Shown: piece after piece, positions 1 through 55,100 of the stretch
Layout: every line of letters starts with the position of its first letter
Numbering within the stretch: the stretch's first letter is position 1
Assembly (NCBI GenBank): GCA_025617745.1
Contig: CM046868.1
Coordinates: 19,286,615-19,350,614, forward strand
Direction of reading: 5' to 3'
DNA length: 64,000 nt
Source of the DNA: Heliocidaris erythrogramma
Taxonomy: Eukaryota > Echinodermata > Echinoidea > Camarodonta > Echinometridae
Position numbers and translations under genes: made by a program
The notes under the pieces: model-generated
Databases searched by the model: none
Seen by the model: only the letters and a program-made list of their open reading frames with translations
Told to the model about the DNA's origin: nothing

Positions 1-236
1 TGATTATGGGTTCACCTATAGGCCTATCCTACATTGTCCTATTGACTAAAACAATCGAAAATTGATAACCCGAAAAAGTAAATGTGTTACCATTATACCC
101 AATTTGTGATAACCAACTGGTATTTTGAAAATTAAATCATGTTTGTATAGTTGAAAATTGTTTGTTTTGAGAATGCTGGATTAAAAGCAATGCTAAAGAT
201 CAAGTGAATGACGGAGGTAAATGCTGAAGGAATGTT

Positions 237-539
237 ATGACGTATACCACACTCAACATCCCACTATTATTAATTTTGGTCGCTGTAGGGATTCAATACT
301 CATTTGGTATTTCATTTACTTCGTCACGATACAACCTCACTTCAGCCAAACAAATATGGGCTCATGACGAATTCAATGAAGAAAATTGTAGACGGAAGGA
401 CATGAATCAATTAAAAACAATGTCGAAAACAGGCAAAAAGAAAGGCATTCCGCAACTCAAGAAATCTCAAAATATTTCAAATTCAGATATAAATCGTTTA
501 ATAATTAAGAAGAACAAGTGCGCATCAATGGCATCATGA
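237..539 (+). CDS. Possible small secreted or precursor protein (100 aa, uncertain)
   Basis: I do not recognise this product. The frame begins with a plausible signal peptide: a short polar start, then a hydrophobic core (IPLLLILVAVGI) and a likely cleavage after SFG. The rest is hydrophilic and basic, with two cysteines and clusters such as GKKKG and IIKKNK that resemble dibasic processing sites. It could be a single-exon peptide precursor, the first exon of a larger gene, or chance. Codon use is AT-rich like the flank and no promoter or poly(A) signal is evident. Confidence 0.25.
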   Translation: MTYTTLNIPLLLILVAVGIQYSFGISFTSSRYNLTSAKQIWAHDEFNEENCRRKDMNQLKTMSKTGKKKGIPQLKKSQNISNSDINRLIIKKNKCASMAS

Positions 540-570
540 TGCAATGTATCAAACTATAGAGAGGCAGTAT

Positions 571-746
571 ATGGGTGTTGCAAGAAAGTTACAATCAATT
601 GCAAATTGTAAAGCAAATTAGAACAACCATTCTGAATGGTTCAGGGTCTGCCTATTCAAGAAGATGCGCTTGCAACAATGATTTTGATTGGTCAGTACCG
701 ATCAGTTGCAACTTGCAATCAATCGCAACTTTCTTGCAACACCCCA
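571..746. mobile_element. Small inverted-repeat element (MITE)
   Basis: About 176 bp with imperfect terminal inverted repeats. The left end atgggtgttgcaagaaagtt is matched by the reverse complement of the right end (atggggtgttgcaagaaagt), and similarity continues through the adjoining aattgca words. Target duplication not resolved. Confidence 0.6.
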
Positions 747-1366
747 TAGTGTATAGATAGGCGGTATTTCTACAAATTATGTTGACATAATATCGTAAAC
801 ATATATGTACATTGTACTTCCAAAAGGTGTTGCATATAGGTCCTATGTTTAATATAAGAAATACTAAAATCGATGAGCAACATGTAGTTATGGACAAAAT
901 TTCCCAAATTATCTGTTGGCAAGATTCGCAAAAGCTATTATCAAATCATATTGTAACTAACAGGAAGTTAGACTGAGATGAAAGAATGAATGTCAGTAAT
1001 AAAAATATACCCCTTCTACGACCTAACTGAATATACACTTGAAGAAATATAAACTAAAATGTGTATTGCAGTATTTCATTTCATATTTTAAAGCCACGGT
1101 TTACAATTTTGGCTTCCAAATTGGTTTTGCACAAAATCAGGGGCTTTGCTCCTTTTTTTTTCTTTCAGAAGCCAGAACCACATAGATCATGAGCTCAATT
1201 TTACTAGATTTATGTGGAATGACAATAGTTATTTCACTTCATTAGATTTATATATAATACATCGGCATATCACATAATTGTACAAGATTATTTTTTCCTT
1301 GAATGAAACTAACATTAACATTTTTATTTCATTTTTATACCGCCTTCGCCGCATTTCCAGTATATA

Positions 1367-1854
1367 CCGTGCGTCTAAAAAAAACTTTACACTTTTAAAA
1401 TGGCTGCCAAATAAAAAATATATGTTTCTGGTGGGAAAGGTTTAAATGTATGGAAAGCTCATAGACTCAACTCTCATATGACACCGAAAATAATTCATGC
1501 TTGGGTGAGCACTGCTCACTTTTGTAAAGGGTATGGAAATTAATTAGGTTGTGCAGGAATTGGGCCTTCCAATTTGTGAGAGGAAGGTCCTTTGGAGCTT
1601 ACGGAATTGTGGATGATATGAAAAATTTATGATCAATTGTGATGACTTTGGGTTTGCTGAGTGAAATTCGTGGTTTATGGGATTAACATTTTATGCATGA
1701 GTGAACAGGGTTTGCATTTATTATTGTAGCATTGTAACTTTCCCTGGTAGACTCAGTGGTGTGTTCATGGGAGTCAGGATGGGGTGATGGTACATGGTGC
1801 AGGGGAGGTCATAGATGGGATAAGGGTCAAGAGGACATGTATACCCCTCCCCCT

Positions 1855-1888
<34 letters not shown>

Positions 1889-2465
1889 TCCTGGGTGTGC
1901 TTGTGCATATCTTGACAATTCATATTCGTTGGTCTCCACTCCAAAATATCCAAACCACCTTCCCTTCTCCCGAATTCTACCTACATTTCCCAAATTGGAC
2001 TGGTTGCTATTACCCATTGACACCTGAAGTCAATCACAATCTATCAGTCAATCAATCAATACCGTAAATTATACAATCAACATTTAAAAAAACATAAAAT
2101 TCACTCAGCAAACCCCAACTGATCGCAATTGATCATGAATTTATCATATCACCCTCAGTTTTGTAAGCCCCCAAAGGACTCACCTCTCACAAATTGGAAG
2201 GCTAATTCCTGCGCAACCTAATTTTCATACCCTTTACAAAAGTGAGCAGTGCTCAACCAAACATAAATTTCCTCCCAGAATCATATATTTTTTATTTGGC
2301 AGCCATTTCAAAAGTGTAAATTATTTTCGGACTTTTGGGGGTCATTGGAAAGTTGAGTCCATGAGCTATCCATACATATAAACCTTTTCCCCCCAGAATC
2401 ATATATTTTTTTAATTTGGCACTTGTTAGCCATTTCAAAAGTGTAAATTTTTTTTAGACGCACAG
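1367..2465. mobile_element. Foldback element with TA target, Tc1/mariner-like
   Basis: Roughly 1.1 kb. The ends are CCGTGCGTCTAAAA and, in reverse complement, CTGTGCGTCTAAAA, each flanked by TA. Inverted arms run about 300 bp (1367-1670 against 2095-2465). The right arm carries its outermost segment twice: ggcagccatttcaaaagtgt near 2299 and a longer variant near 2428. A CT run and GC-rich middle (1845-1890) sit in the loop. No transposase is visible, so it is non-autonomous. Confidence 0.7.
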
Positions 2466-3801
2466 TAGAAATAAGATACGGGGTACGAGCGTTGAATCTG
2501 TCGCCATCTACGATCAAAATTTCTGTTTCCATGCCATCGATCGCATACAACAAATTTTATTTTGGACTGCCGTACAAAAAAGCATCATTTCTATCAAATA
2601 AAATTTATTCGTTTCGTAATATTTTTTTAAAATGTATAATGATTTAGAATAATTCGCAAAATAAAGTTCAATTCATCGTTGGGTAAGTAAAATATTACCT
2701 TCCTTCATTTTCAAGCTGTTATTCTTCCTTTAGTTTAGCTTTCACTTACTATATGGGCCCATTCATTCAGTTTTGTGTAAGTTAACGTGAGAGCTTGTCC
2801 TAGCAGACTTGCTGATAATTATTCACAGTGATGTAATCATGATGTAATAATGATTATTGAACATGGTGAATAATATTATTAATAAGAAATTCATCTCAGT
2901 TAAATCTATTACAAATCTACTTCAAAATAATTTTGTAGCACCTTGATTTTGAAAGCTTTATACTTTTTATAGAAATTCCGTAGAATGAGAATGTTATTTA
3001 TTTTTACTGGAGATGAACTTGGATTGTTGGAACTGAAAAGTCTGAATATATTAGAGATGAGAGGCGTAGTGCCTGCGTTCAGTATCTTCCCTAGGTATCC
3101 CCCTACGTATTAATATTATATTTATAATTATTTATTGATATAGACAGAAAAATCCGTCTGTTTACTTTGGAGGAGTTTTATAACATTTTTTTACTTTCGA
3201 GGCTCTCCTCCAAGGAGTTTATTAGAGTTTATTTATTTATTTAGAGTTTATTTATTCATTTGTCTTTCTTCCAACAGTAAGTAACAAGAAAAATAACATT
3301 AACACTTTCTTTCAAACAATGATATAAATAACAACAGTAACACTAGGCTTTACAAGTAGGCTATACTAAAAAAAAACATAAATATATGACAGAGTACATG
3401 TACCTGTGTAATGATAACAAAGATAACAATATTTTGAGAAAGGCAAACGAGGAGACCTTAATGAAGCATAGCTTGTAAGACAAGGTCCCTCATGAATAAA
3501 AAGTAATGTATATATATATTTTGGAAAGAAAAAATATATATATATATTGAAGAAAACAGAAAATTGTAGCAAGAAATACACAATACGAAAAAAAAGGATA
3601 AACAAGGGTGGCTATATACAATGGGGGCAAGGATTCCGCGAAGCCAGACATACTCTCAGCAGAGCATATCCCCGAACGAAATAGACTGTCCAGAGTCCAG
3701 GCCCAGGGAGCTCCAACCTGGGCCTGGGACTTAATGTATCAAACATTCACTGTTGCATTACTCCAGTAGTAAAAAACAGAACAAATTGCTCTTAAACTTA
3801 A

Positions 3802-5227: not shown

Positions 5228-8200
5228 ATGTCAAGAGCTCAGGCAGAGAGTGTCATCAAGAATATCATCCGAGAGATCGCCCAAGAATGTGCCAGCAAAG
5301 GGCAAGCTGTCTCGGAAACCTTGGTGGCTTTCATGGTAAAGGCCGTAGTCTTAGACCCTTCCAATGAATTCAATGTTGACCGAACTCTGACCAAAGATGA
5401 TGTCCAGCGGCTAATAAAGGTGAGCATATTTCTTTTTAAGAAATCTGCGATTTGACCCTTGGTTACAGAATTTCTTAATTGTAGAATAGAGAAGAAAATC
5501 AGAGTATAGATGCACATCCTTCCAGTTATTGCAACATGATTTTCTGTGCATTATAGGAATTGTTGTTGCAAAGTATAAAAGGAAGTTAAGAAGCTTTCCC
5601 TGTGCACCTCATTGAATAAAACCATTTAAATTCACTTGGATGTATTTTCCCCTGTCATTATGTTAATCTATTGTCTATGTTCTCTGTTCTATTCACTGTT
5701 CACTAGATCTGTGTAGACAGACTCCTTGATTCCAGGTCCTCTGCCCTGGATACTGTCAAGATGCAGGTCTACTTTGACATGAACTACACTTCAAGGGGTG
5801 AGTCCAGTAGTTGATGTTTTGATAAGCTAGTCAAGTTTGGTGGACTTTAACCCCTTCTCTGCAACCAAGATTATGAAGAAAATGAACTTTGTTTTATTGC
5901 AGAATTCATAATTTGTCTTGGGCATAACTATATGATGCTTTTCTTGTTTCTGTTGAAAGAAGAAGAAAACCTCACTTTCTTGATTCCAAGGTCATACGTG
6001 TACATCATCAAAATTCTTGGGCCGGATTTGCCATCCATGCAACAGAAGTGGTTTCAAAGTGTAGTGTCGTTCATACTTTTTTGTGGCATGATTGTAGTGT
6101 ACAGACTATTGATCATCGTTGAACTTCAAAATCACTTATCCTTTTTTGTGTATGCAAGCATTATACATACTGTCCTTTATTATCTTTCCAGCAGCTTAGT
6201 ATCGCTAGTATCTTGCTATTCATGATCTAAAAATCAGAGAAATCTGACGAAAAGTTTTGGCGTCTTAACAAACTTGTTCATGGGTTTTAAATAGTACCTT
6301 TAAACAATCTTTGATTATACCAAAGTTTGACCTTATTACCCTTGCATGTTTTATAAACTATGATATATTGATTAATTATTAGGCGACTTCCTCGAGGAGC
6401 ACAGACGGGTCCTGGAACAGAGACTGACCCCGGTCATCCGTGAGATCACAGACAGTAGGGCCAGGACCAGGGATGAGCTTGAGAGTCTATATAGGAAGAT
6501 AGTCTCTGCTGTTCTTCTGCGATCTGGACTTGGTTCTCCGACAGATATAGCTGTGGTCAGAGAGGCTACAGGTAATGGCATACTGTCCTTTGGATAGGTT
6601 GTTAAATGTACTACTACTGCCACTACTTCTACATTCACCCCTCATTACATAGTTGTATATTTCATTGGTCATAGATGTAATTTTTATTGGTATGAGTATG
6701 TAAATGTAAGAAATATTTTTATGTAAGCTTGAATTGTGATTGACACTAATATTTGCATGCAGCTACTTGAGACATTTACGAGGAGGTCCATACTTGTATC
6801 CATATTGTGTATATGAATGTATATAGATCAATATTTTTATACTCATTAGAATAATTTTTTAGCATTTTCTCCTACGCCCCAGGGCCCCCTCCCCCTCTTT
6901 ACTGCTATATTTAATTTATTATGTATACCGTACCCCCGCCAAATGAAGTTTGAAGGGCGTAAATAGGAATCGGTCCGGTGCAAATCTTGCACATCGAACT
7001 ACTTCCGCATTTTTCGAGAAATGCTCGTGAAATTCACCACACACATTGGTCTTGGGATGAAGATGTGCAAGACATATTTTTTTAGTGTCTGAAACTGCGT
7101 TGCAATGGTAACGCATATATGGCAATAAATCAGTGGGAAATCTTGCGGATCAAACTACTTCCTCAGTTTTCGAGCAGTGCTCATGAATTCGGCACACACA
7201 TTGGTCTTGTGGTCAAGATGTGCAAGACATATTTTTTGAATGTGTCGGAAAATAGTTGCCATGGTAACAGCATGGTAACATCATATTATGGCAATAAATC
7301 AGTGGGAAATCTTGCGGATCGAACTACTTGCTCATTTTTTGAGCAATGCTCATGAAATTTGGCACACACGTTCGCCTTGGGATGAAGCTGTGCAAGACAT
7401 ATTTTTGGAATGTGTCGGAAACTGCGTTGCCATGGTAACAATATATTATGGCAATAAATCGGGGAAAATATTGCAGATCAACCACTTCCTCATTTTTAAA
7501 GCATTGCTCATGAAACTAGGCACACACATTGTTCTTGTGGTAAAGATGTTCAAGACATATTGTTTCAACGCGTGGCAAACCATGGTAACGGCATATGGCA
7601 ATAAAAGGGGAAAATATTGCAGATCAACCACTTCCTCATTTTTGGAGCAATGCTCAGGAAATTTGAAACAAACATTGGGGTAGGGGTATTAATCACCTTC
7701 AGTGATATTTTATGCCTCCGCCCACCGAAGGTGGTGCCGGAGACATTATGTTTTGGGGTTGTCCGTCCGTCCGTCTGTCCCGCTTTCTCGTTCGCGCGAT
7801 AACTCAAGAACCACATGAGGTATGAACTTCTGACTTGGTGCTAGTATGTATCACCATAGGAAGATGATTTGGTTAGATTTTGGGGTACGTAGGTCAAAGG
7901 TCAAATGTCATAGAGGTCATTTCTGAAATTGCAGGTTTTAGCCTTGTTAACGTGATATCTCAATAACAATTGGATATCTATTAACTTCAAACATGGAACT
8001 AGTATGCATCACCATAGTGAGACGAACTGATTAGATTTTTGTTCACGTAGGTAAAAGGTGACAGGCCATAGAGGTCATTACACAGGTGTATGTGAAATTA
8101 ATGTTTTTTTACCTTTGTTATCACCATATCTCAACTATTTTGTATTCATGACTAGGAGGAGACAAAGTGATCAGACTTTTGGGTTATAAGGTGTAAGGTC

Positions 8201-11200
8201 AAATGTCAAAGAGGTCAATTAACATGTAATTCGAGGCTTTTTATTGTGGTTATTACAATATTTCAAGAACAGTTTGAGCCATCAATTGAATTTAGGCGGA
8301 GACATATAGGAGAGGCAGTCGCAATCATCTTGTTTTTCTTGTTTTGTTTGCCACATTTTGTGTTTTTTCAAAACAATATGGAATACAGTATAGTTCATGG
8401 CATATAACTTGTCCTAGTTTATCACACAATAAATATCCTCAATAAGCCATGCCTAGTACTGTCAAACCAGAAACTCTCGCGTGCATTTAATGTTCGCGAA
8501 TTTTACGAGTGGTTCAGAACTGCGAAAGTTTCCTGTTGCAGAAATCATTGAATCATAATTGACAGTAAATATTTGCAAATCCTGAAAGTTTCTTGCCGTG
8601 AAAATGGCTGCTGTTTACAATTTCTGGTGTTACAGTAATCTATTAACATAAGAAAATCATCACAGGACAATTAAATATTATTATTTTTTGTATCTTTTGA
8701 AACTACAGCCGCTCTCCAGAGTGTGTTCCCACAGACAGAGCTTGGAACGTTCATGTCTCTTGTGAAACGAGATAAAGAGCGTCAACTGATTGAACTGACT
8801 CACATTGTAACTGGTATTCGTCTCTTCAACAAGGAGTGTGGCAAGGGAGGAGAGGGCATCGATGATTGTGAGTTACTTGCAATGTTTTTTTTTAATCTGT
8901 CAGATACCACTTAATTAACACACACATTTTTCTTTGATTTCAGCCTCAGACATCTCTGGTTTAGTATTTAACTTGTTAAAGTACTCTTGTCTATTATGTG
9001 AAGAAAGAGAGGACGCATCAGATACCAAGAATTTATGTTGTTATGTTGTTTCTTCCCTTGGTAGGGGGAGGGGGAACTATGAAATATGATGGCAACAAAT
9101 ATGTAATTTTTTATACTTGATTTGTATTTAGGTTAATGATGAGAATACTACGACTGTTACTACTAATAATAATTGTTACTTTTAAAGCACTTGTCCAGTG
9201 AACTGCTCAGACCATAAAATGTGCATATGTATGTACAAACAATAAGCATAAGTGGTATTCTTAGCTAAAATATAAGTAAATGTACAAATATCAGATCAGA
9301 CCTTGGCTATATCCTAACTGCAGCTTAATAGATACTGTGAATCAGTGCTATTTGTCAAATTCAATTGCTAGGGATAACGTGTTTTGTCAAGTGTTCTGAC
9401 ATCGTTCCTCGTTTCTTTCTTTCAGTGCCGGCTATTTTGAATGAGGCTGTTCCAGCAACCACTCAGAATGTAGATACAGCCATCCAGAGAGGCTGTGGTA
9501 CTGCATTCAAGTATACAGGTGAGAATGTGGTGCTATTTCCATCGTTAATGTCTCATAAACCATTTTACCACTTTATCAGGATTCATTAAAATGGTCAAAT
9601 ATAACATTTTTCTCATAATTATTCACTTTTGCTTACATTTCTCTCATACTGTATGAACCTGTTATAATTTCTGTGATGACAGTCATGTATATGGTGTTTT
9701 GCATGATGTACATGTGGAACACATTAAAAATATGTATTTTGCTATATGATAGTAAATTCTGTATGAATTGAAAATTAAAGTTTGACAGAAGCCAATTACA
9801 TGTAGTTTAAGCCCTGCCAAAAGGGATTAATCAGCAATAACAACAAGAAGTTGGGTCAATAATTCTTGATAACAAACCTTATTTAATTGTATGTATGGTT
9901 TTGACTAACTGCATTTCAAGAAAAATATCCCTGAACAGTTCCTATTTTGCTGTACATAATGGTGGATTAATTTCTGTTCTTTACAGCCCTGATTGAGCGC
10001 ATGATGAATGGAGAAGTGACAGATGGTCCATCGATCCAGGCATTGAGGGATGCTCTTATCAATGTCAGGCAACATGAAGCCTTCTTGAGGATCATCTTGG
10101 TGAGTGTGAACCTTCAACCTGTCCAATGAATTTCATTTATGAAACAATGCTATGAGGAGGAGGAGGAGGTGGATGATGATGATGATGATAATTAAGCCCG
10201 AGTCATATTGATTATCTTGTAAACCGGGGATCGACGGCTTTGCTCCGGTCGAACACTGATGCACCGATCAATTGATGGACGGTAAAATTGAGGACAATTT
10301 TGTGCTCTGGCGCGATGGTGTATGTCCCAAGCAACATCGCTCGTGTTATGTATGGCGCTCTCGCGGCCTATGCACCGGTCTGTGATCCGCTGTTCGCCAT
10401 CATTGCCGCGGCTTTCACTTTGCCCAATGCCCATTTCACTAAATCATCTTTTCACAATATTATGCATCTAGGAATAACAACTTACACGATACTTAAACAT
10501 CCCATTATTTATCTTGACAACGTCATGACTTATTGCTCACTCACAACCACATTAATATTATGTCTCTTCTGATTGTCTAATCTCATCAATTCGCGCTCTC
10601 GTATCACACATACGTATATACAGTAGTACTTTAGCGATCACATGATTCAAAGTTAAGGGAAGTCCAGTCTAAATATAACTTGGTTTTGTTAGGAGCAGAA
10701 AAATCAGACCTACAGATCAAAAAAGTTTGAGGAAAATTGGACAACTAATAAGAAAGTTATGAATATTTTGTGATGGGTTTGTGATGTCACTGGTAGACAA
10801 CTCAATATTCACATAAATTGAACCAAATACATCAATAGTAATATGTTTTTGTATGTATAAACATTTACAAAATATTTCATGAACTTCAAAATATTGATAT
10901 TTGTTTTCAAAATATTACATTTCCATAAAAACTCATCTTTTATGTATATTGTATAAATATTCATATTTTCATGATTTTTACAGAAAATTATTTATTCTGT
11001 ATTAATGTATACATGCAAAAACATATTACTATAAATATAAGTTGGTTCAAGTCATGAGGAAATCACATTCTTGGACAAAAATTTAAATTTGTATTATGAA
11101 TATGAACAAAATAGTTGGTGAGTTGTGTACCCATGACATGACAGATTCATGACTGAGTTGCCAATTTGTGTAGTGATTTTCATTGTTTCTCCAGTTTTTC

Positions 11201-14200: not shown

Positions 14201-17200
14201 TGTCTGTAGGACTAATTTTTATCTCATAATTACTGTATTTTCCTTCTCCTATGCTCAGACATTGGGTAAAGACAACCGAGTCAGTCCGTCAGACTTCAAG
14301 TATGTCGACTGGTTGTTTCCAGAGACGACCAAGAACTTTGAAAGGCTCCCTCTCCAGTACAAGGTAATCTCTTCCTCTTTTTTTTTTACAAGAGTTTATT
14401 TTAATGGGTAGCCTATCCTGAATATTAGTTGGTTTTATTAAATGGAAAATGAGAGAAACAGATCAGTGAAATTTTGAGGAAAATTCAGTAAAAAAAAATT
14501 TATTTTCAAATTTGTAATCGGTCAAATGCAAATGGGCAACTATGTGAGGTACATGTACCTTTTACTGAAATTGTAATAAATTTCAATTTTTCCAAAGAAA
14601 ATATTTTATCAAACCTGTGCTCTAGTTAATATTGGATGCTGGATTTTGTACACCCCCTCTATGAAAGAATATACTACTTCATCAACAATCATGCAAATGG
14701 AATTTCATGGAATTTTAATTTCTTTACAGGCGCAGCCCTACGCCGCAATTAACTCCTCGTAAAGTCGTAATAGCTTTTGAATTCCTAACGGCTACCGAGG
14801 CCCTGTGCTGAGAGAGGAGCAAAAATGCTCGAAAAATTCACCTTCTTGTATCGCCCTTGTTTGGGCCATAAAAATCATGAAAATTCAAGAGTATATAGGA
14901 AATGATGATATTATGCTGCATATCAATTTTCACTGAAAACGGTTGAGTATTTTTTGAGATACGAGTATATTTCTGTTTCAGAGTACGGTCAAAAGAGGTT
15001 TTGTTTTTTTCATGTCACAAGTCTGGGCCGAAATGAATATGCAAACATTGACGTAATGCTAGACTTTAAACTCCAGTCTAACTCCCTGCGCAGTTGTAGT
15101 TTTGTGTAAAACTGCCATAAAAAATCATGAAAAAAAATGGAAACGTACAGCTATCATCAAACGATTTTGCCTCTTTGCGCATGCGCTCACCCGACATCAT
15201 CCATTTGCCTCAGCTCGCGCTCACGTCGATCAGCTGTTTCCTGGGCCCTGTTTCATAAAACTTGTCAAGTTGCGATAACTGTTATAAGCTACTGAAATCC
15301 TTGCATTTGATTGGCCGAGAGCAAATTTGTCTGTAAAAGTCACTGGCAAGACACTTGGTGAAACGCCCCTGTTTACGCCTAGCCTGTACACTGCCCATAG
15401 ACGCTGTCGCTTCCCGGCCTAGCTAGCTAGCTAGCAGTACAGTCTGTACGTAGCAGGTAGGTTCCGTGATAGATTTTTATATAACTGGGGGGGGGGGGAA
15501 TGCTACAGTCCAATCCGGTGAGTTGTACAGTTGCAGCAATCCAACTTATTTTATTATTACCCTGATTGATTTCTTAATAATTATATTAGCTCTATGTCGT
15601 TCTTTTGCCCAGTATCGGACTTTACTTCAGCATGTTTTATTGCTACAGTCCAACACACTGAGTCGAGTGTAAAATATCCTGCACGTACATGTACATAGTA
15701 CACTAGAGTGGAAACCATCCTGCATGCACCGCTATACGTGGGACTACATTTCAACTTCCGCAAAGAACGGTCAAAGGTTCATGAATGACATTGCCTTCAA
15801 TTTTTTTTCCCGACACAACCGTTCGACAGATAATTATGAAAAGATATTTGGAGGATCCCAACCTCAATATACTTTGATTTTTCATATCTGAAAGTTTGGA
15901 TCTTGCGCAATGCAGCAAATATGAAAAATACTGCGACATTTTCAGACTAAAAAAAGAAAAGAATTGGATCCTCATTTCTCTAAGTTTTCACAAACTAAAA
16001 AATGATTTGACTATGAGTGATATAATTACAAGTTAGAACAACTCTTATTTTGGAATTTGACGTTTAGTTCATTTCATTTCATTTGGTCGTTTCTAGGGCG
16101 AGATTTCACATTTTAGCTGAGAATCTTTGAATCGGTTTTACGTAAACAAATTGTTTATTTTATGCAAATTAGGCAGGACGGAGTGAAAGCTTTCGGGTGG
16201 CTAATTGCAGTGTAGGGCCGCGACTGTTTAAGTGACTTGTAGCTTCTAAACATACTTTCCCAAATTTGCCAATTTTTTTCTTTGCAGGGTTACTGTGGCT
16301 GGGCTTTGGTGATGTTTGATCGTCTTCTACTACCTGGTAACCCAGACATAGGAGTGCTGAGATACCAGGATCGTTATTATGTCTTCTCGTCCAAGCAGGC
16401 AGCTTATGAGTTTGCTAGTGATCCACAGAGATACATTGCTTATGTGGCTGAGTGTGCAAAGAAATCTCCTCAGCTGATACAGCTCCTTGAGCTCCATGCT
16501 CAGTTTGCAACCATCACTCCTTACACTCAGGTATACTTACATGTCATTCAGTTTAAAGATAAAGTTGAGTTCTAGTCATGTGATTACTTTGTGAAAGAAA
16601 CTGTCTCAAAGCCATTGGGAAAGGTTGATCATGTCTACATAAGAATTAGTGTATAGCGTAACGTTTTGGAATCATCAAAATGATAAGAATTTGACACAAT
16701 CTCACTGAAAAGCATATACACTGCACACATAAATGGGTATATGGGACTGCACACACATGTGCCATGAATGTTCGGCCCGTACACTTCGGCTATCTCTCGT
16801 TATATTTCGATTATGATGGCATTTGAAGAAAAAATCGACATTTTTACTATGATTTTCTTCCAAACTGACATAAAAGGAATGAGAAAGCTCACAAATTAAT
16901 TTTCACCTTCCCAGAAATCAACCTTCTCTTTAAAGATAATCTTCTGTTCTGGTAATGATGAAAAAATAATTTTTACAGAATTAAACAAAACTTACACTGT
17001 ATCTTCAAGAATATAAATATATATGCCACACGATTTTGGTGGAATGTGTATAATATAGCTTTTGACCAAAAAAAGATGAGGAAAGCAAGGTAATAGAATA
17101 GTCCCAACCCATGTGCGTAAAGTGATCTAATATGTTCTTAATGTTGTTTGTGCCTGTCAGTAAATGTGATTTCTGACATGTTTTTGGTAAGAGTTTATAT

Positions 17201-36900: not shown

Positions 36901-38361
36901 TCTTCATGCTCCTTAACCGTTAACCCATAGAAGGCCAGGTAAAGTGTTTTGAGGTTGATTTTGTACATTCTAGCTGTACACAAATTATTTTTGTAGGTGA
37001 TTGGTACAGTTTGAGGATATCTATTGATGGATTCCTGTCTACTATTTTGCTTTCAAACTAGTGTATTTCTCCTGGTATTTTTCTTCTCAAAACAACTCAT
37101 CACATGTGACCGTACATGTATATTTGAGAAGAAAAACACTCTGAGAAAATACTTATTACTTGGAGAGTAAAAAAGTGAGATATACTAATTAGTAGAAAAA
37201 AGCCTTTAAAAAATTATAGTGAGTGACTTTAATTATTTTCCATGATAAATGTAGGAGAGACTTGCCCCAGTTAACCTTGATGATACAATGGATGTTGATC
37301 ATAAACCAGCTCGTCCTGCAGGCAAGCAACATGTTATAAAAGGTAAGTGAATTTCATAGATATATATCATACATTTTGGAAAGGAGCATGATAAAAAAAA
37401 AACATGGTCAATGGGATTAGACTTACATATGACTTTTTATATTTTATATCCACCAATTTTTCAATGTTTCATATTTTAAGAATGCAGCTCGTATTATTAA
37501 AATGTGTGAGAAATCTCCATTGTCAAGTTTGGGGAAAATGGGAAGTGTGATTTGAATGTTAATATTTTAGCGGCATGTTATAACTTAGAAATTTTTCAGT
37601 GAAGCCTACAGGTGTAGTGGTTAAAAATGTTTCTGAGAGAAAGTTAAAAAAAAAAAAAATTTTATTTGGGAAATGATATTCTTAGGAATATTTAGAACAA
37701 TGGAAAGATCAAACGCAATGATTACCTTGTAAGCTCTTAGTTGGTGGTTACCATACAACTGTGGTTGGGGGGGGGGGGTTACCAGGTAAATAACTATCAA
37801 ACTTGAATTTTTCTCCTGTTTCCTATTCAGAACTTGAAGCCATAGCTGATATGCCTACTAAGAAGAGGGAGAGAATCTCAGAGCCAATGGTGATGTACTG
37901 CACCTACATGATGGACAAGTATGATACTGACTATAAGGTGAGCAGTGTGCCAATACTTCAAGGGATTTCTACCCTAAGGAGTTTTATTACAAGCCCCAAA
38001 TGAGAGAAACGTATCAGTGAAGAAAAAAATGGGGGTTGGGGGTTGGGGTAGAATGCTATAAATATACAACAAACTGTGCCATTCACTTTATGCTTTCATA
38101 AGTTTTAAATTTATATGACAAAAAATTCAGCATTCCAGAAGTGCTGTTTAGACTGCTTCACGTTTTATCCACAGAAATTTATGTTTCTCTCATTGTCAGG
38201 CAATGGCCAGAGACATTAAGAACTACTACCAGGACACCCCTAAGCAGATCAAGAAGAAGATTGCCTTGTTCAAGAGCTGCAAGGTGCAGTATCAACAGTA
38301 TCTAGCCCAGAAGTCAGGCAAGGATGGACAACCAAACACAGAAGATGTTACCATGAGCTGA
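23868..38361 (+). CDS. NOP16: NOP16, nucleolar protein 16 (5 exons, 188 aa)
   Basis: Nucleolar protein needed for assembly of the 60S ribosomal subunit. Exons: 23868-23968, 36278-36386, 37255-37342, 37831-37937, 38200-38361 (TGA). Phases join exactly; human NOP16 is 178 aa. The first exon gives the very basic N-terminus (MAKTKAARQRRKYNYSANRR, then WKKKKK). Exon 2 carries the conserved core CDPIKNAWDNKKSVKENM and the block MGLSSDPN. Exons 4 and 5 give ELEAIADMP and the family signature KAMARDIKNYYQDTPKQI followed by KKKIALFK. The C-terminus is a hydrophilic tail. Donors are gtaaac, gtaagc, gtaagt, gtgagc. Intron 1 is 12.3 kb and made largely of mobile DNA, striking for a small housekeeping gene. 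An E-box lies just before the start. Confidence 0.95.
24318..24684. repeat. Inverted repeats built on cctaaagctacgcac
   Basis: gggacctaaagctacgcac at 24318-24339 and gggtcctaaagctacgcac at 24520-24539 point one way; 24648-24666 and 24667-24684 are two adjacent copies in reverse. This looks like a MITE (24520-24684) with one duplicated end plus a solitary end. In NOP16 intron 1. Confidence 0.65.
24986..25105. repeat. 120-bp near-perfect palindrome, no loop
   Basis: The two 60-bp halves meet at 25045/25046 in a tacgtacgtacgta core and differ at only two positions. The arms run from ctacgaagacctg outward. No target duplication is evident. It could be an ultra-short MITE or a hairpin precursor. 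Confidence 0.9.
26199..26570 (+). repeat. Internal block of the 7.3-kb element, first partial copies
   Basis: Opens gatattcacggccgtac and contains taacatgggtaccggtatat followed by gatgtctc, here with short local duplications near 26434 and 26495. The same block occurs again at 27690-27890 and twice in tandem at 30671-31540. Confidence 0.8.
27925..29600. repeat. Inverted family of gactgc-tttcaattatttgga units
   Basis: Three direct units around 29128-29205, 29292-29372 and 29455-29527 share ggaaagt, cgcccggactgcttttcaat and gcaagactgcactgta. A reverse copy lies at 27925-27990, followed by a reverse copy of their GC-rich neighbour (gcaaaagctctgacgttt). This suggests a decayed foldback inside the larger element. 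A (GA)n run lies at 27382-27420. Confidence 0.6.
30671..31540 (+). repeat. Two tandem copies of a 437-bp block
   Basis: gatattcacggccgtacgta starts at 30671 and again at 31108. Each copy holds the caaggcattttaatggccc, gtaccggtatatgatgtctc and gacattgtctcgttctaaac words in the same order. Identity is high, suggesting recent duplication or conversion. Confidence 0.85.
31727..33040. repeat. Minisatellite of acgtaggtccgtagg units
   Basis: About 1.3 kb. Higher-order unit of roughly 40-50 bp: acaacgtaggtccgtaggtc plus cgtaggcta, then a spacer of tgattactgacaccctgg or tgattacttatatcctg type. The inner gtaggtcc octamer is itself doubled or tripled. Spacer types alternate in longer blocks, indicating higher-order duplication. 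Confidence 0.95.
33840..34860. mobile_element. Foldback element with tandemly repeated right arm
   Basis: The left arm (about 33995-34200) reads through gtgagcaaagaccacttttg and ggtgcaaaatccaaacttga. It pairs with two inverted copies at 34500-34640 and 34620-34860 (tcaagtctggattttgcacc, cttttgctcactc). A poly-C/poly-A run sits at 33939-33991. In NOP16 intron 1. Confidence 0.6.
35064..35221 (+). repeat. Direct duplication around gcagctagcgtgacgtcaca
   Basis: A 49-bp segment opening aaatgattgtgcgcatgcag occurs at 35064 and 35173 with almost no change. It contains tgacgtca, a palindromic CRE-type site. The 60-bp spacer is unrelated. Confidence 0.85.
35410..36012. mobile_element. Foldback element with about 180-bp arms
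   Basis: Left arm: tagccttttgacaaggcctc then gtgacttggctatttt, later gtcacgaggccttttggaac. The right arm holds the reverse complements in mirrored order (gttccaaaaggccctcg ... aaatagccaagtcacgag, ttgccaaaaggcta). Arms begin near tctagatct words. In NOP16 intron 1, 265 bp before exon 2. Confidence 0.75.
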
Positions 38362-44450: not shown

Positions 44451-47400
44451 TTATCGAACAAGAGGCTGCGCAAGCTCCTCAATTCGCGGTGGACACCGGG
44501 CTTTCTTAGCAGCTTCTCTGACAATAAAAGCATCAGGATTGAATTGCACATGGTCCATGGTAGCACGCATTATTGGTGTGGAGAGCTCATTGGTACGGCT
44601 AGTGGCGGTGGCCCGACGTGCTGCACGCGTGATGGACCACTGAACAGGCCTGTCAGCCTGATAACCGTCGGCTACGTTCTTCGGCTTGGCCAGTTCCAGC
44701 TGGCGAGGAGTTGCGTTTGCTACTTTGGCGACATCCGTCACCTGGTAGTTGATGAAAAAGTAGAGAGCAATATGTTTATCACCTTCAAAGCAATATAAAA
44801 ATGAACCTTTATGCATGGTTTCAGAAGAGAGGATACACATGTATGCAATAGGAACTTTGTATCAATTTTATACCATAAATTTCCATTGCATATGGTATCA
44901 GTGTTTTGACATTCAGAGGAGTTAAATGGATATTTCAATTTTCAAAGTCCATCGTATGGATCATATTTTGAATAAAGGAATGCCATCTTCTATCCTTTTC
45001 ATATACTTGTTGAAGAGGATCAAGTCCTGACTCGGTCCTGACTCGGTCCTGACCCAAAAGCTAATATGAAGGCCAAAGGTGTCAGTATCACTTTGATCTC
45101 AACTTAAAGTTTCTTGACATGCTTTGACAGGAGGGTTGACTGTGGAGGAATTCCATACCAGATATTGGATTCTCCATACTATAAATTGTATGTGCACTAC
45201 TTATTGATGATCAAGATACCTCCCTATGAATGCACTGTATGGTTTTTTAATACATTCCAAAAGCATGGAATATTAGGCTTGACCTTGTGTGCAACCACAA
45301 AAAAGATAAATAAATGTGCATGGCAGATATGGTTCGCTCTGTCTGCTTTATGAAATATACCCTAATTTAAGTCATGGACCTCTTGGACAGTGAATATGAA
45401 AATGGCATTGAGCATGCAATTTGGTTAGATGTGAAAGGTGACTTACTGGCCATTTTGGTTCCCTGAAGGGCCCAGCAGGTCTGCTTTTGGGTCTGGCTAG
45501 CATCTCAACTCGACTTGAAGCCCGAGCGTTCTTTGCACCTGCACTCACAATGGTTTCAATCTGTAGAGATAAAGAAACTAGAAATATCACTGAAGATGAT
45601 GATTAATACCCCCGCCCCGTGACAACAGCCCTTCTTGACTTTTGGTAGAAAACTGAGGAAGTAGTTCGATCCCGCAAGGTGTTTCCGTGATTTTCTGCCA
45701 TAAATATGCCGTTACCATGGCAACGCAGATTCCGACTCATCCGAAAAATATGTCTTGCACATCTTCCCACCAAGACCAATGTGTGTACCAAATTTCATGA
45801 CTTTCGGTCAAAAACTGAGGAAGTAGTTCGATCCGCAATGTGTTTCCTTGATTTTCTGCCATAAATATGCCGTTACCATGGCAACGCAGATTCCGACTCA
45901 TCCGAAAAATATGTCTTGCACATCTTCCCACCAAGACCAATGTGTGTACCAAATTTCATGACTTTCGGTCAAAAACTGAGGAATTAGTTCGATCCGCAAT
46001 GTGTTTCCTTGATTTTCTGCCATAAATATGCCGTTACCATGGCAACGCAGATTCCGACTCATCCGAAAAATATGTCTTGCACATCTTCCCACCAAGACCA
46101 ATGTGTGTACCAAATTTCATGACTTTCGGTCAAAAACTGAGGAAGTAGTTCGATCCGCAAGATTTGCAATGGACCGACCGACCGACCGCCCGCCCGCCCA
46201 ACCATCGACTGATTCCTATATACCCCCTTCAAACTTCGTTTGGCGGGGGTATAAAAAGGAATTACAGAGATCTTGAGCCTGAAACCTAAAAATATTAAAA
46301 AGGAAAGAAATTCTGGTCCACAACTTGTGAATAGAAGGAAATGCCAATGTATAACTTTTCAAAAAAGAGAATTCTTAGAAGGCTCATAGATAAAGTTAAT
46401 ATTACTGGTATTCATTTGCAAGCCACCACAGTCACAATCGCATCTTAACATGAAAAATTAAACCTTCATGAAAATAATGGCTCATACACAGCATGTTCTC
46501 ATACTGTTCTACTTGTAAGACAAACGTGCCAGAGATGTTAATATTTTGTCCATGGTATTGAATGAATTTTAGTGTGATTACAGTGAAACCTGTCTATAAA
46601 GACCACTCAAGGGAGACAAGAAAAGCGGTCTTTATGAGCAGGTGGTTTCTATGTACAGGTTTGTTTAACACATATCAATGAGAAACACTTTTCAGGGGAA
46701 ACAAAAATTGTGGTCTCTATAGACAAGGTGGTCTTTCTATACAGGTGGTCGCTAAAGCAGGTTTGACTGTATCTGAAAAATACCATCAGATCAAGGAAAC
46801 TGATCATCTCTGTCACTGCAGAAACAGATTGCACAGGAATCCCAAAGGAACTTCATACAATTCACAATTCTGTCTGCAGAATTTATACATGTACCTCCCT
46901 TTTTACACTGGTATTTCAAATAATCCAAAGTTCTGAAGAAGTGATGACTATAGAAATCATACACTCTTTGTGCTGGAGATGATCAAATTACTATACAAGT
47001 AAGTTGTGCTACTCACTGTTCTAGGTTCCGCAAACTCTTTGTGTGGGGTCTTGGCTCTGGCAAGGTACTCAAGTCTCTCTTTCTCTGTGGCTTTCTTTGC
47101 AGGTTCACTCACGTACCAGATGGGAGATTTTCTTCCACAGCTGAAGGCATGACTAGGTCTAGAATAGAAACCAGTCAATGGTACATGTTATGAATATATG
47201 AAAGATATTTCATCTGATACATGCTCGTGTGATCTGAAAGGGGGCCGGGCCAATCACCAAAAAAATATTTGCTACATAATATTTGGGTTCCATGCAGATA
47301 TACTATGTTCAAAATATCAGCTCAAATGATAATTTGTTAAGAGAAATGGCAACTTTTTGAAAACTCTAAATGAAGGAAAAAGTGACTTGTGAGCATGTAC

Positions 47401-49153
47401 TTCAAGCATCTCTACGCAGATGTTTGCAAAGAGAACCCAAGAAAAGAAAGGCAATTTATGTTTCTCTCTTTCTTATGTTGCATTTTTCTTCTCTCTCTCT
47501 CTATCTATCACATCAGTCTTTCTCCCATCCTCTCTTCCTCATGGATCTGTTTGGTGGTGGTTAATTTTTCTCTCCCCTCCCATTCCCCTCTATATCTCTC
47601 TTGCTCTCTTCTTTCTACCTGTCTTCTCTTGTCTGCTCTCTGTCTCTACATCTCTTCCACCATTCTGCCTCTCAGCCTCTTTCCCTGCCCCCCCCCCCCC
47701 CACACACAACTCTCGCTGTCTCTCCCCCTCTCTTTTGCTCTCTCTAATCATTCCTCTCTCCCGTCTGTCTCACATTCTGAATTATATTAAAGAATACCTG
47801 TCTTCTTTGAAAGTTGCAGGGGGTCTCTTATAATTTGACAGCGTCTCTACCCTTTCTGTCGGAGATGCTTTCATTGCTAGAGGGCTCACTTCCCATATGA
47901 CTGAGTTTCTCCCGCAGCTGTATACATGGATATTCCTGAAGAAAGAAAGTTAAGAACAAAATGATTTTCGGTATCATTGCATTTGATAACGTCAGAAACC
48001 ATAAATTGATAGTTGAACCTCTTCTGTTATTCATCTCTGCCTACCACGAGGCATATGTTTCAAAATTTATCCATTTGGTTCACATGATAATAAATCATCA
48101 TAAATTGCAATAGTCAACATTTAAGAGTAAATCTTTCAAATGAATTATATCAAAATGAAACAAAAAATATATTGCTAAATCACAATAATTCGAGAGAAAA
48201 TTATCAAGCTTTGATATATGCAAATTAAACAGAATTTTGATGCAGTGTTAGTGCGTAACAAGCAGTTTCTGAAGTAAAAGTTCCTAAAAGTTACTAGACT
48301 ATCTTTAAAAATGAATTATGCACATGAAAAATTAAAAGGCAATGGATATGATGAACAACAATTTGTAATTAATCTCATCCACTGCTTTCTACTTAAATGC
48401 TGTGAACATGGTTGTTCATTATTCAGAGAGAGACAAAATATGAAGAAAAAAAAGTGATGATATAGGATCGATGTAAGAAAAACTAGAATATCACTGAAGA
48501 TGATTAATACCCCGCCCCAATGTGGGTGTCAAATTTCCTGAGCATTGCTCAAAAAATGAGGAAGTGGTTTGATCTGCAATATTTTCCTGTTTTATTGTCA
48601 TATGCCATTACCATGGCAACGCATTTGCCACACATTGAAACAATATGTCTTGCACATCTTTACGAGAACAATGTGTGTGCCTAATTTCATGAGCATTGCT
48701 TGAAAAAGTGAGGAAGTTCTTTAATCCGCAATATTTTCCCCTGATTTATTGCCATAATATGTCGTTACCATGGCAACGCATTTCCCACACATTCCAAAAG
48801 TATGTCTTTGCACATTTTCATCCCAAGACAAATGTGTGTGCCAAATTTCATGAGCATTGCTTGAAAAAATAAGTAGTTCGATCCGCATGATTTCCCACTC
48901 ATTTATTGCCATAATATGCCGTTGCGATGCTGTTACCATGGCAACGCAGTTGCGACACATTCAAAAACTGCACCTTGCACTAACGTCCTTTGGCAAGACA
49001 ATAATCTATATTTGCCAGTCTCCACCCAGGTGTAAATGGGTACCTGATATGCTTGAGCGCTAGTTACTTTGGCGGCTCGGCTATAACCGGGGTAATAATG
49101 TCTAAGCGCCATGAGCTTCACTGCGTGACGGATATGAGCACTATATAAGTTGC

Positions 49154-49186
<33 letters not shown>

Positions 49187-52100
49187 CTACAAGACCAATG
49201 TGTGTGCCGAATTTCATAAGCATTGCTCGAAAAATGAGGAAGTAGTTCGATCCACAAGATTTCCCACTGATTTATTGCCATAATATGCCATTACCATGGC
49301 AACGCATTTCTGACACATTAAAAATATATGTCTTGCACATCTTCATCCTAAGACCAATGTGTGTGGCGAATTTCATGAGTATTGCTCGAAAAATGAGGAA
49401 GTAGTTTGATGCACAAGATTTGCAACCGACCGACCCTTCAAACTTCGTTTGGCGAGGGTATAACAACTTACTTCTTGCCATCTTTTGTGCTTCTTAAGTT
49501 CTTCTTGGGTGAGGAAAGTTCCTCTGTCCTTGGGGTGGGGCTGGCATTCATCGCCCCTTTGCTGACCGGCCACATGGTGTCCTGGTTACCCCATTCCAGC
49601 TTGGGCCTGCCCCAAATGAAGACAAATTTCAAATTATTCTTTTTTCCCTTAAAATGTGCTATTTCTGCAATTCTTGCTTGCCTGCTGTCCATCCAACCTT
49701 TCATGCTGTCCAATTCAGACATGACTTTCAATGTTAATCTTCTTTCTTACTACGACTTTTTCCAAATAATCCTTGATTTACGCATGTTTTTTTTTTTTTG
49801 TCGTTACACAAACAAAACGTTAAAAAGAATCTATTTTCAGACCTACATGTAGCTAATACACTTTGCCGTAGCTGCTAATTACTTTGTATTGTACATTATG
49901 TAATATATATCATTAGAAAAATCATATGGAATAATTATGGTGACTGATAATGAATAATATCTTTGGTACATGTATATATTCTGTGACATTATAGCCAATA
50001 TATTTCTTTAAATATCATTCATATTTACTACTTGAAAAAACAAACAAAAACCAGGAGTTTGTAAAACTAGACAATTTGAATGAATCTTACCCAAAGCTGG
50101 TTAGCCATATTGCCTTTGAGTTTTTGTGTTCTGACAGGTACATAAATCTGTCCCTGAAATTGAAAAAGAAAAAAGAAGCAATATGTATTAATGTGAGTGC
50201 AGAATATTCTTTTTCACACATACTTTGTAATTTTACTACAAATGTCCATTGCTGCGCAATGCAAATGTATCCCCCGGCACTGGCAGCGATTCGAAGGAGG
50301 GACATAGAACCTCCCCCCTCCCCTCCCTCAAACCAAAGGATGGCGTAGAGATTGCCACCAGTGGCCAGGACTATTGTCAACACTAGGAGCAGCATCACCA
50401 AAACAATGTGTGTAGATTAGAGTATACTGCATCTCTATAGAAAATTCGAAGAAATCTGTCAAGAAATGTGACCTGCAGAGTGCACACAAGATAAAATATG
50501 ACCTTTGACCCTATGAAAGATGGAACATTGGGGGCAGCATCACCAAAAACTGTAGAGGTCTAGAGTAATCTATGATGGACCTCCATACAAAATCTGAAAG
50601 AAATCAGTCAACAAATGTGTGTCCTCCAGAATGCATGCAAGACGGCAACCGAAATGTGACATTTGATCCTATAAAAAGCGGAACACTGGGGCAGCATCAG
50701 CAAACACTATACATGTAGATGTATAGATTTCACTAAAACACACCTCCATATAAAATTTGAAAGAAATCCGTCAAGAAATGTGGCAGTTAGAGTGCACAAA
50801 ATGACCTTTGACCCTCTAAACGAAGGAACAATGAGGGGAGCAGCACCAAAAACTATAGGTGCGTAGACTTTTCCAAGAAACACTTCCATACAAAATTTGA
50901 ACGAAATCTGTCAAGAAATGCAGAAGAGTGCAAGAAATGGACAAATGACCTTTGACCTATAATGGACGGAACAATGAGGGCAGCATCACCAAAAAGTAAA
51001 GATGTGTAGATTATACCAAGTTACATCTCCATGCAAAATTTGAAAGAAATCCAAGAAATGTGGCCTACAGAGTGCACTCATGTCATTCTCCAAAGTATGA
51101 CCTTTGACCCTATAAAAGATGGGACACTGGTGGCAGCATCACCAAAACTATAGGTTTTTAGATTACTCCAAGAGACACCTCCATACAAAGTTTGAAAGAA
51201 ATCCGTTGAGAAATGTGACCGCGAGAGCGCACACAAGCATGGGCGCCAATCCTCACAGGAATTCTATTCAAGTGGGGGGGACACCCCATTGTTGCATCCA
51301 GGTGTGTCCCCCCCCACTTGAATAGAATTCCTGTGAGGATTGGCGCCCATGCACACAAGAATGTGACGCGCTGCTGAATCCAAAGTATCCTCCGGCATTC
51401 TGCTGGGGATTACAGTAATAATAAAAATAAGGGAATATCTTAGGATAACAAAATTTAATAACTAGGAGCCCTTTCACACTCACTTCGTTAGAGCGCTCTA
51501 ACTAAGAACGGTTACTCAGTAGCGGTTCCCAGGTGAGTGTGAATGCTCAAGTGGTCCAGGAAGCGTTCTTCTGGAGCGCTCCAGAAGACCACCTCGCGAG
51601 GTGGTCTTGAGGAACGGTTCTTAGTTAGACCGCTCCAATGTGGCAGTGTGAAAGCAAAGCGATCCTAAAGCGTACTTCAACCGGAAGTGAGTGTGTGTGT
51701 TGCACGGGAAATCTCGTGTGATAAAATGACGATAAAATGACAGAATGATAAAAACAAAGGAAAACAGGGAAAGATAGAAAGATAAAACGATAGAATGAAC
51801 AAAGAAAAACATAAGAAATCTAAAGAAAGAAAAGACGATAGGATGATGAAAACAGAAAAAAAAAGGAAAAAAAGAAGCCTTGGAAAGATATAGAGATAAC
51901 TGCATCAGGCCCGCTTACCTGAGCTGCCATAGCAACAAGACCACTTTGACTCGTTAAGCGATTTGAGACATAAAAAGTACGCGGAGTGTGAAAGCAAACA
52001 AAGCGTTCTTCAAGAACCGTTCCTCTAGAGCGGTCTAACTTGGAGCGGTCCAGCAGGGAGTGTGAAAGGCCTCATATAATCTTACATAAAGAGCTTTCTT

Positions 52101-55100
52101 ATCTTCCAGATACACATGTATTTGAATTGAAAGAGAAAAATATTTCAAAAATATAGGGGGGGCGCAGTATAGTACTAACCTTGGTGCCTCCGAGAGACTG
52201 TCTGAATTCTCCTGGACAGGAGCTGTAGAGAATATAAAATAAACAGAACCAATATATATTCACAAAGTCATAAAACATATTATTGACCAGTGGCGGATCT
52301 ACATAGGGGGAAAACCGGCCCGTGCCCCCTCTTTTGAAACCCAACTGGCATACCTTAAGTACACAATAAAAAAAATCTGTCCCCTTTATTGTGTACTTTT
52401 AACGGCACTGTGCCCCCTCTTTTACAAAATCCTGGATCTGCCCCTGTTATTGACAAGACTGATCAAATGTGCTGTAAATTGTTGTGCTACAGCCTACCAG
52501 TAGACACAATCTCCCTAGCAGAGTAAAATAAACTTGTATATTGATATGTATTATTATTTTCATTATTATCATTTTATTTTTTGGCTGGCACTCTTTGTAG
52601 ATTTACTACATATACATATAGATTTCAGTCATTTTATGTATTTTTTTTTCCACTTTTCTAAAGCTCTTGTGGAGCTTTCCTGAGCAAATAGCTCACCACT
52701 CACATGTATTTTTTCACTGCTCCTTGGTTTTGAAAGTGTGAAATCAAATTGGGTATTTTTAGGAAAACATATTCATATGTCTGAAGAAGAATTATTTAGA
52801 TCATTTAGTGTGATATAGAAGAAGATACCTCTTTAAATTAGACTCTCAGGTGAGTTTGTCCTAATTCACAAGTTCAATTAGAAATTGTGATGATAAATTA
52901 TTGTAAAGAAAACTATTCAATTAATTACAAGTACAGACAAATATAGTCATATGTAAGTGTTTAATTTCATTTCACTCCATTATCATATCTTTCCATTCTT
53001 TCCTTTCCTTTCACTTTTCCAGATTCCTCTAAGCATCCCCATAAGCGGGTTATTTTTCACAAAAGAATAATATCAACAGCCTTCAACTGTGAAGACTCAC
53101 TCACATGTATATCCTTTGACCCAATAACATGTCATACTATCTAACAGACTTTTTTAGCTTTATGAATTTCTAATAAGAATTGGAGGTATAGAAAGAAAGA
53201 AAGAAAGAAAGAAAGAAGCTCATACATGTAGCTCTGACGTAAACGGATATATATGCTAGAAATTATTTGATACATCTCTCGACAATCAAACCACACACCT
53301 TTCAAATATGATGTATCGCTACTTGCAAACCACAAAAGACGAGAAACACATGTCCGGAAAATCTTACAAGCTACTTAGGCGATGAGCCTCTGAGCATTGC
53401 TTCATCGTTACCATGGCAACGGCCTAGAGCCAGGTGCAGTGTGCTGCATCAATCAATACACCACACAAAGAGGAGCGGTCGGAGAGTATTGACTTTCACA
53501 TTGATTAACAAGCTTTGTTCAATGGGACGGCTACACATTGTCTGATTGATGTATCAATGGTAATCAGAGGTGAAAGGCCAGTGCACGTGGTGATTGTTTA
53601 TTGTTGACCATTTCTCCTTGGAAATAAAGGACTTGTAGCTCAATATGAAATAAGATCCACAAACTATAAATTGAATTGATATAGTTATGTACGTATTAAA
53701 AGTATTATAGAAAAGAGCAGTCTAGAGGGGAGGAACATGTCAAGAGGAAATTACATCAGAATTTCTCTCTATTTTTGTTTTTGTTCAACTTAAAATTTCA
53801 AATTTGAAAGAATCAAGTTTTATGCAAAATTACTCCAGGTTAATGTATTATTTTCTTCTCTTTTCTAACTTTTTAAAGCCCAAATTGGTTACAGGTCCCA
53901 GCAAATTTCATTTCTTGAGAGATACATGTAATTTATTCAGTGTTTATTGGTTATTTTTGCCATTTTTAACATTCAATATTTGATAACATGTATTGCATTA
54001 AGCAAATAATGTATCTTGTTTAAATAGCATGTAAATCTGAAGTTGAAAAAGCGTAAAAGTACCATTCAAGAGATATGTGGAGAATTAGTCAAGTATTAAA
54101 TACATGTAGATTAATTTTTGTCAGACTCAGAAAATATTACCAAATGCAAAATTATCTTTAAATATTTTTAACAAACACTTTTATTATAAGTTGTAAAAAA
54201 GTTGTTTAAAAACGTACATCTACAACTACATGTACATTGTAAGTCTGCTCTAGACCATTATATTCATTTATTTTTTACGTTGTTACTATTGACATGACAC
54301 TCTATTTACAGGGCGAGTAAATATTATCACAGTACAATGTACACACAGGGTCAGTAAGAGTCAATTTACTATTCCTATTTATCTATTCATGTCATCTGTG
54401 AAACAACACCCTAATGGAAATAGAAATAGAATGTACAAATTTGGCTGTTAAACTCGGTATCTATTGATAACAAATTTCTATCTCAAGGCCGGTGCTTTTC
54501 TGAATACATGTCGGCAACCTGTACATCTACATGTACATGTACCTGACAGTTTTCAGTCAAGAAAGAAGTACCTTTGATAAATGAATTATTTATATTTTCA
54601 ATAATAGTTATGAATACATAATACAGGCTCAATAAAAATATACAGTATTCAGAAAGTTCTGCATCATTTGAATTCACACAGGTGTCATGCATATAGATCC
54701 CACATGTATTCTGGAGGCCTATAATTACATTAACATTGGAGTTGCATAGCAACAGGGTAATGGAAGTGCATTCATATGGAGATACATGCCATGATCATGT
54801 CAAGCTCAGTACATGTAGGTCCTCAATATACAAAGTGCCTACCATTCAATTTGGAATAGCCCTACATATACATTGCATTTTTTTTTTTAAATTTAAACGG
54901 ATGTATCAGTAAAATCATGCAATTTATCATAATTTACCCTATTCATGTTTTTAAAAAATTGATATACAGAAGACTTTTTATTTTACCCACATCAACTGTC
55001 TGGCCTGCGACGCGATGTACATGTATACTGTACATGCACTACAAATGAGTGGAATTTGAGAATCCATTCCATTTATTTATTTTTTTTAAATAGAACCTCG

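Follow-up and report, generated by a model that had tools for sequence, protein, structure and literature searches.

Helentron-type HINE elements with a putative RFX X-box in their core monomers in a sea urchin genome

The window studied here, i.e., the whole stretch of 64,000 nucleotides at C16:19286615-19350614 of the 1.06-Gb assembly, contains three arrays of ~160-bp units which, judged by their anatomy, are copies of one family (A) of HINEs, the non-autonomous Helentrons. Most probably, family A has been dispersed by rolling-circle movement with Helentron proteins, and the X-box in the monomers of family A and of a second core family (B) scatters putative RFX sites by chance. The original prediction was of an intronic element that could spread RFX sites to ciliary genes. 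Of this, the mobile family and the scattered putative X-boxes stand, while no special tie to ciliary genes emerges from the spread of the elements, the decay of the X-box columns or the mixed set of neighbouring genes.

Results

The 14-mer GTTACCATGGCAAC occurs seven times perfectly and three times with one mismatch in the three arrays, which are the counts originally predicted. Allowing up to three mismatches gave 35 matches in the window, far above the shuffled sequences (mean 4.84, sd 2.43, largest 11; 100 shuffles). The three arrays were likewise recovered, with slightly shifted bounds. Copy 1 (~6924-7711, + strand) has a one-mismatch site at 7099 and perfect sites at 7255 and 7426, all on the − strand, and a further unit at 7512-7657 with the broken site GTTACCATGGTTTG. 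Copy 2 (~45575-46253, − strand) has some three units (97% matches) and, at 45711-45724, 45872-45885 and 46033-46046, X-boxes without a mismatch, and copy 3 (~48480-49462, − strand) has perfect sites at 48764 and 48932 and one-mismatch sites at 48607 and 49290, all of them found on the + strand by pattern search. Consecutive X-boxes are 156-171 bp apart, except for 358 bp where an unrelated insert breaks copy 3 at ~49014-49184. This insert has a tail of ATT repeats and is possibly a tRNA-derived SINE. An eighth perfect X-box at 53407-53420 (+ strand) lies outside all three arrays. The restricted X-box form has 24 matches in the window, both strands counted.

The RFX consensus is given as RYYNYY N1-3 RRNRAC or GYTRYY N1-3 RRHRAC in PMC2375033, and GTTACC AT GGCAAC matches both forms. 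GTTACCATGGCAAC therefore reads as a textbook two-half-site X-box and is treated here as a putative RFX site.

HINEs are defined by subterminal inverted repeats (subTIRs), an inverted repeat (IR), a microsatellite, central repeats and a 3' palindrome (PMC7492417; PMC4067079), and family A is called a HINE because all of these are present. In element orientation, the copies start 5' with TATACCCCCGCC-AAACGAAGTTTG-AAGGGGGTATA or a decayed form, followed by a GGTC-type microsatellite, which is present in copies 2 and 3 and reduced to a short remnant in copy 1, and then by the tandem units; they finish 3' with GGCGGGGGTATTA-ATCAC-CTTCA-GTGATATT or a near form. In copy 2, the 5' subTIR TATACCCCCGCC, the small palindrome AAACGAAGTTT and the IR GGGGGTATA lie at 46219-46253 (− strand), as seen from sequence and fold, and this end forms a hairpin when folded (z -2.96, with 3 of 200 shuffles equally stable). 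The GGGC/GGTC microsatellite of the left module follows at 46176-46203 (− strand). At the other end of copy 2, the 3' subTIR GGCGGGGGTATTA at 45604-45616 (− strand) contains an 11-bp inverted match to the 5' subTIR, the shared stretch being ATACCCCCGCC in the 5' subTIR and the inverse of it in the 3' subTIR, which agrees with subTIRs of ~11 bp or more. The IR GGGGGTATA stands 14 bp past the subTIR and is complementary to the 5' subTIR. Both the subTIRs and the IR are degraded in copies 1 and 3. The 3' palindrome of copy 2, ATCATCTTCAGTGAT, lies at 45586-45600 (− strand); its 5-bp stem forms in a fold of the 81-nt 3' stretch, yet 179 of 200 shuffles are as stable. In copy 1, the short 3' palindrome characteristic of HINEs is seen as the hairpin ATCAC-CTTCA-GTGAT at 7692-7706 (+ strand), immediately following the 3' subTIR, and it is near-identical in copies 2 and 3. 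The GGTC repeats and the unit length also agree with the microsatellite and the central repeats of ~140-180 bp. Insertion at TT without target-site duplication is a further mark of HINEs, and on this point the copies show no more than T-rich edges.

Genome-wide, the perfect 14-mer occurs 7,065 times and its reversed pattern not once, where simple arithmetic with even base composition gives ~8 occurrences of a random 14-mer per genome. The exact 5' end of 23 bases occurs 1,021 times, again with zero matches to the reversed pattern, and the first 100 of these (among the matches listed) stretch along C1 to 77.6 of 78.5 Mb. Family A is thus widely spread along the listed part of the genome. A tandem two-site pattern had no matches in viral contigs and none in prokaryote genome contigs.

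From 53 clusters in the first 9.34 Mb of C1, 40 loci were chosen for a perfect site, and 37 of these contain core units, of family A in 19 and of family B in 18. In family B, whose core is clearly different from that of A, the same 14-mer recurs in register; this family was discovered through the site, and its ends are undefined. The B profile matches A units with 16-22 bits over most of the length, compared with ~6 bits for a lone X-box, and these matches, with the X-box in register, lend weak support to a common descent of A and B. As the 14-mer is shared exactly by two cores that are only weakly alike elsewhere, it may have been under constraint during the life of the element.

The other three of the 40 loci (L015, L021 and L046) hold a lone perfect site without A or B units, which is above the chance rate of ~8 per genome; the 14-bit match at L046 covers little beyond the site. 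Such lone X-boxes were noted at L015:5001, L021:5001 and L046:512 and, in the window, at 53407 and at 51923, the latter being the X-box-like site GCTGCCATAGCAAC. An 11-bp collinear unit match, TGAGCATTGCT, lies 4 bp off the site at 53407, which is possibly the relic of a deleted unit. Both window sites lie upstream of the 5'-most THEG-like exon recognised (the first exon of the gene was not located). The lone X-boxes are candidates for real RFX sites or for relics.

In a profile scan of the window, A and B units came up in the three arrays alone, save for weak B-profile matches to an array of a further family, C. By the cluster rule used for C1, the window has four perfect-site clusters, whereas over the initial 9.3 Mb of C1 1.4% of the 64-kb windows have at least three and 0.3% at least four. 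The site density of the window is uncommon, but this is weak evidence, and its weight is mostly lost because the window was singled out for these copies.

Conservation of the site was assessed in an unbiased sample of 20 C1 elements picked by their 5' end (entries 20-37, 39 and 40 of the list of 5' ends; entry 38 was skipped as it is <1 kb from 37). In their 68 full units, 38 sites are perfect and 62 fit RYYNYYN2RRNRAC, and at least one perfect site is found in 16 of the 20 elements and at least one consensus X-box in 19. Over the same units, the identity to the consensus is 0.940 for the 14 X-box columns, 0.943 for the rest and 0.949 for the non-CpG rest. Among 148 windows, that of the X-box comes 81st in rank, and in 67% of draws 14 non-CpG columns taken at random are equal or better. 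When position 4, at which the RFX consensus accepts any base, is left out, the remaining 13 columns reach 0.962 against 0.949 for the non-CpG rest, and 34% of the random sets match this. In the end-picked elements of family A, the site is not conserved beyond its surroundings. Samples picked by the site, from which one perfect unit per element was dropped, had ranked it 5/147 and 16/148 in A and 13/145 and 18/145 in B; the unbiased sample consists of family A only. An exceptional conservation of the site was dropped in view of the end-picked rank.

The dispersed copies of family A lose the X-box at about the neutral rate, and as the conservation of its columns does not exceed that of the remaining unit, the copies look like decaying neutral insertions. 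This neutral decay in dispersed copies says nothing against a role of the site in source copies. Substitutions within the X-box are tolerated by the RFX consensus in 26 of 35 cases in A and 5 of 7 in B, where 57% is expected. However, a single A>T variant accounts for 16 of the 35 substitutions in A and, as judged by eye, lies chiefly in the first units of arrays; the tolerated substitutions therefore show no constraint.

All three window copies had been placed in introns of two ciliary genes. For arrays 2 and 3, this is borne out to the extent that they sit between THEG reading frames: THEG repeats are found in four − strand frames within 44454-49746 (one of them just under the Pfam cut-off). 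The frames at 45375-45602 and 46960-47187 flank array 2, and those at 46960-47187 and 49471-49746 flank array 3. The PDB chains 8snb_8A and 8otz_Dn, both from sperm axoneme structures, match the THEG stretch. A FAP206 domain is present at 16243-16572 (+ strand; Pfam). However, the intronic position of array 1 in CFAP206 depends on a first exon at ~5.2 kb which was read by eye and has no Pfam match. A NOP16-like exon is presumably located at 38203 (+ strand), judging from our reading of a motif, and the predicted contrast of two ciliary genes with a NOP16 gene free of copies amounts to three elements in two genes. At window 45545-45580, the 3' end of copy 2 was seen to lie at most ~30 bp from what looks like the acceptor site of a THEG-like exon on the − strand (CTACAG, then ATTGAAACC), and this end may thus provide the polypyrimidine tract of that exon or encroach on it.

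Genes near 20 other C1 loci, of which 19 are independent, were identified by Pfam scans of 101 ORFs (from the 150 longest of 447, at least 70 aa, with most repeat-overlapping ORFs excluded) and of 115 ORFs (from the 150 best of 184 filtered ones, 58-92 aa), scans in which short exons are missed. Except for L022 and the dynein of L016, the translations were read to assign hits to loci. The neighbours include an axonemal dynein closest to DNAH3, FAM194, a peptidase M1, laminin, Med20 and BORCS6, as well as CH-domain and ARM genes; MH1 and TIR domains were also hit but are untied to a locus, and the CH gene (L015) adjoins a lone site and not an array. Weak hits to DUF3915 and Ig_ZP2 were dropped. 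The DNAH3-closest dynein gene appears to be duplicated (L016 and L017, at 1.55 and 1.89 Mb of C1), with apparently the same HINE insertion in both, and was counted once. About ten gene families are found near these loci, one of which is surely axonemal. This is compatible both with chance, dynein genes being large, and with a modest enrichment, and with about ten gene families a ciliary enrichment is neither shown nor excluded.

One contig of the assembly, C26 (14.5 kb; positions 1-3000 were taken as L029), looks bacterial by eye, with frames resembling a PhoR-like histidine kinase and an exopolyphosphatase, and may be a piece of a contaminant or symbiont.

Tandem repeats (TRF) with periods of 100-230 bp were found in 22 rows in 264 kb, 16 of them A or B, a share to be expected given that the loci were picked by the X-box. 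Five of the six other rows carry TGACCTNTGACC, which we presume to be a DR1 nuclear-receptor site, and they belong to family C (window, L018 and L025), family D (L014) and family E (L018). The sixth, L009:1500-4272, has neither the X-box nor the DR1. In the window, the family C core array at 50443-51240 (+ strand) has the DR1 TGACCTTTGACC in place of the X-box, and family C is a distant homologue of B. A neighbouring repeat at 7703-8260 (+ strand), which did not come from TRF and has an approximate right edge, resembles D of L014 (E 2.5e-23), has the DR1 AGGTCAAAGGTCA at 7892 and has a HINE-like end by eye. The DR1-bearing arrays, with units of ~143-157 bp, are then window 50443-51240, L018:43-1017, L025:2-1099, L014:3740-4101, L018:5327-5701 and window 7703-8260.

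In shuffled units of C, D and E, the DR1 appeared in 10, 6 and 3 of 20,000, respectively. Families E and C share 17 bp around the motif, and no similarity was found between family D and A, B or C. Families D and E are 61% alike over 176 bp (E 5e-5) and may be of one origin, so that the families perhaps have two or three origins. These arrays suggest that HINE-type cores may repeatedly carry dimeric factor sites, in a small sample in which the DR1 was noticed after looking, HINE-like ends were recognised for D and E by eye, and families B and C have undefined ends.

Discussion

The explanation that we favour is that a founding monomer would have held or gained an RFX-type site and was then amplified in tandem, giving a HINE core that is a short tandem array of ~161-bp monomers, with GTTACCATGGCAAC in the monomer of A and B. 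Autonomous Helentrons would supply the proteins for movement, presumably by rolling circle, and each insertion would drop one to several putative RFX sites wherever it lands. Most simply, CFAP206 and the THEG-like gene took up these insertions in their introns by chance.

Whether the X-box has a purpose beyond this chance scattering can be weighed against the same data. The site might serve the element itself, in that RFX in the programmes of spermatids or ciliated cells opens the chromatin of the copies or drives their transcription in the male germ line, which would aid mobilisation. The same 14-mer stands in register in two diverged core families, a strict X-box arose in 0 of 20,000 shuffles of either consensus, and a consensus X-box is retained by nearly all end-picked elements. 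In addition, Caenorhabditis Helitrons, whose heat-shock elements are proposed to act in this way, offer a precedent (PMC6927752), and RFX2 binds such motifs in mouse spermiogenesis (PMC4498915). However, family C is a homologue of B without the site, B was found by the site so that its sharing is partly a matter of selection, and the columns are not clearly better kept in dispersed copies, although source copies lie outside that test. We regard this use of the site as less likely than not. It is highly improbable, in contrast, that the copies are RFX-dependent enhancers of ciliary genes retained by selection. The two ciliary genes of the window and the duplicated axonemal dynein (counted once) do hold copies, and in mouse, promoters account for about one third of the RFX2 peaks, the remainder being in introns, exons and intergenic sequence (PMC4498915), yet the X-box columns decay like the others and most of the other recognised neighbours are not known as ciliary.

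The palindrome could also serve the DNA mechanics of the array, e.g., hairpin formation, replication slippage or recombination, with an incidental match to the X-box. This would suit a near-palindromic site within a tandem array, but C, D and E form tandem arrays without it, and the 14-mer equals a known dimer site, spacing included (PMC2375033), which leaves this reading quite unlikely. A broader alternative is that HINE core monomers are portable cassettes for factor sites, with putative RFX sites in A and B and putative DR1 sites in C, D and E. It draws on the DR1 in five of the six non-A/B rows, its rarity in shuffled units, and the fact that the likeness of E and C is confined to the 17 bp around the motif and that none was found between D and C. 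Against it, the motif was picked out post hoc in a small sample, tandem expansion of TTTGACC could produce a DR1, the ends of B and C are undefined and those of D and E were judged by eye, and L009:1500-4272 carries neither motif. As D and E are weakly alike and may have one origin, the probability of this reading is lowered further, and we consider it somewhat unlikely. That such dimeric-site cassettes, at nucleosome-like spacing, would open chromatin in the germ line or in ciliated cells and seed thousands of candidate RFX sites for host genes, ciliary ones included, is an unlikely extension suggested by the motifs and their spacing. Scattering by chance with a mobile HINE family is the reading that we retain.

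Helitron-class elements which spread factor sites are already known, both from Caenorhabditis and from ISX of Drosophila, the latter being a Helitron. The Caenorhabditis Helitrons likewise cluster and spread factor sites, and a selfish origin is proposed for them; binding of HSF-1 and gene induction were shown there (PMC6927752), whereas the RFX site described here is putative and present in nearly every HINE monomer. In ISX, too, a transposon spreads sites of a regulator, in this case the dosage compensation complex, and functional sites are reported for it (PMC4384637). Oyster HINEs with cores of ~160 bp are also known (PMC7492417). Cg_HINE of Crassostrea gigas and Pearl have the same subTIRs of 11-12 bp, IR, GTCY microsatellite and 3' palindrome; they have central arrays of mostly 140-180 bp with few monomers and are dispersed, in some cases within non-coding parts of genes. 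The Results of that study mention no RFX site, and the likeness is one of description and not of monomer sequence. The architecture of our HINEs is also like that of DINE-1 in Drosophila, and sea urchin elements such as Tsp are cited as DINE-1-like in PMC4067079, again a likeness by description.

X-boxes in Helentrons were not found in the open-licence literature on RFX or X-boxes with transposable elements, as judged from the titles and starts of abstracts of the papers listed. Among the papers containing two 13-base pieces or two 14-base palindromic variants of the site, which include the Drosophila cilia papers PMC3414849 and PMC4168999, none is by its title about such repeats.

The thousands of near-ideal RFX sites in this genome offer a natural test of whether a misplaced strong X-box alone recruits RFX and alters expression. 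If it is true that different HINE core families carry different factor sites, this would also suggest why satellite-like monomers of ~160 bp persist in genomes of this kind.
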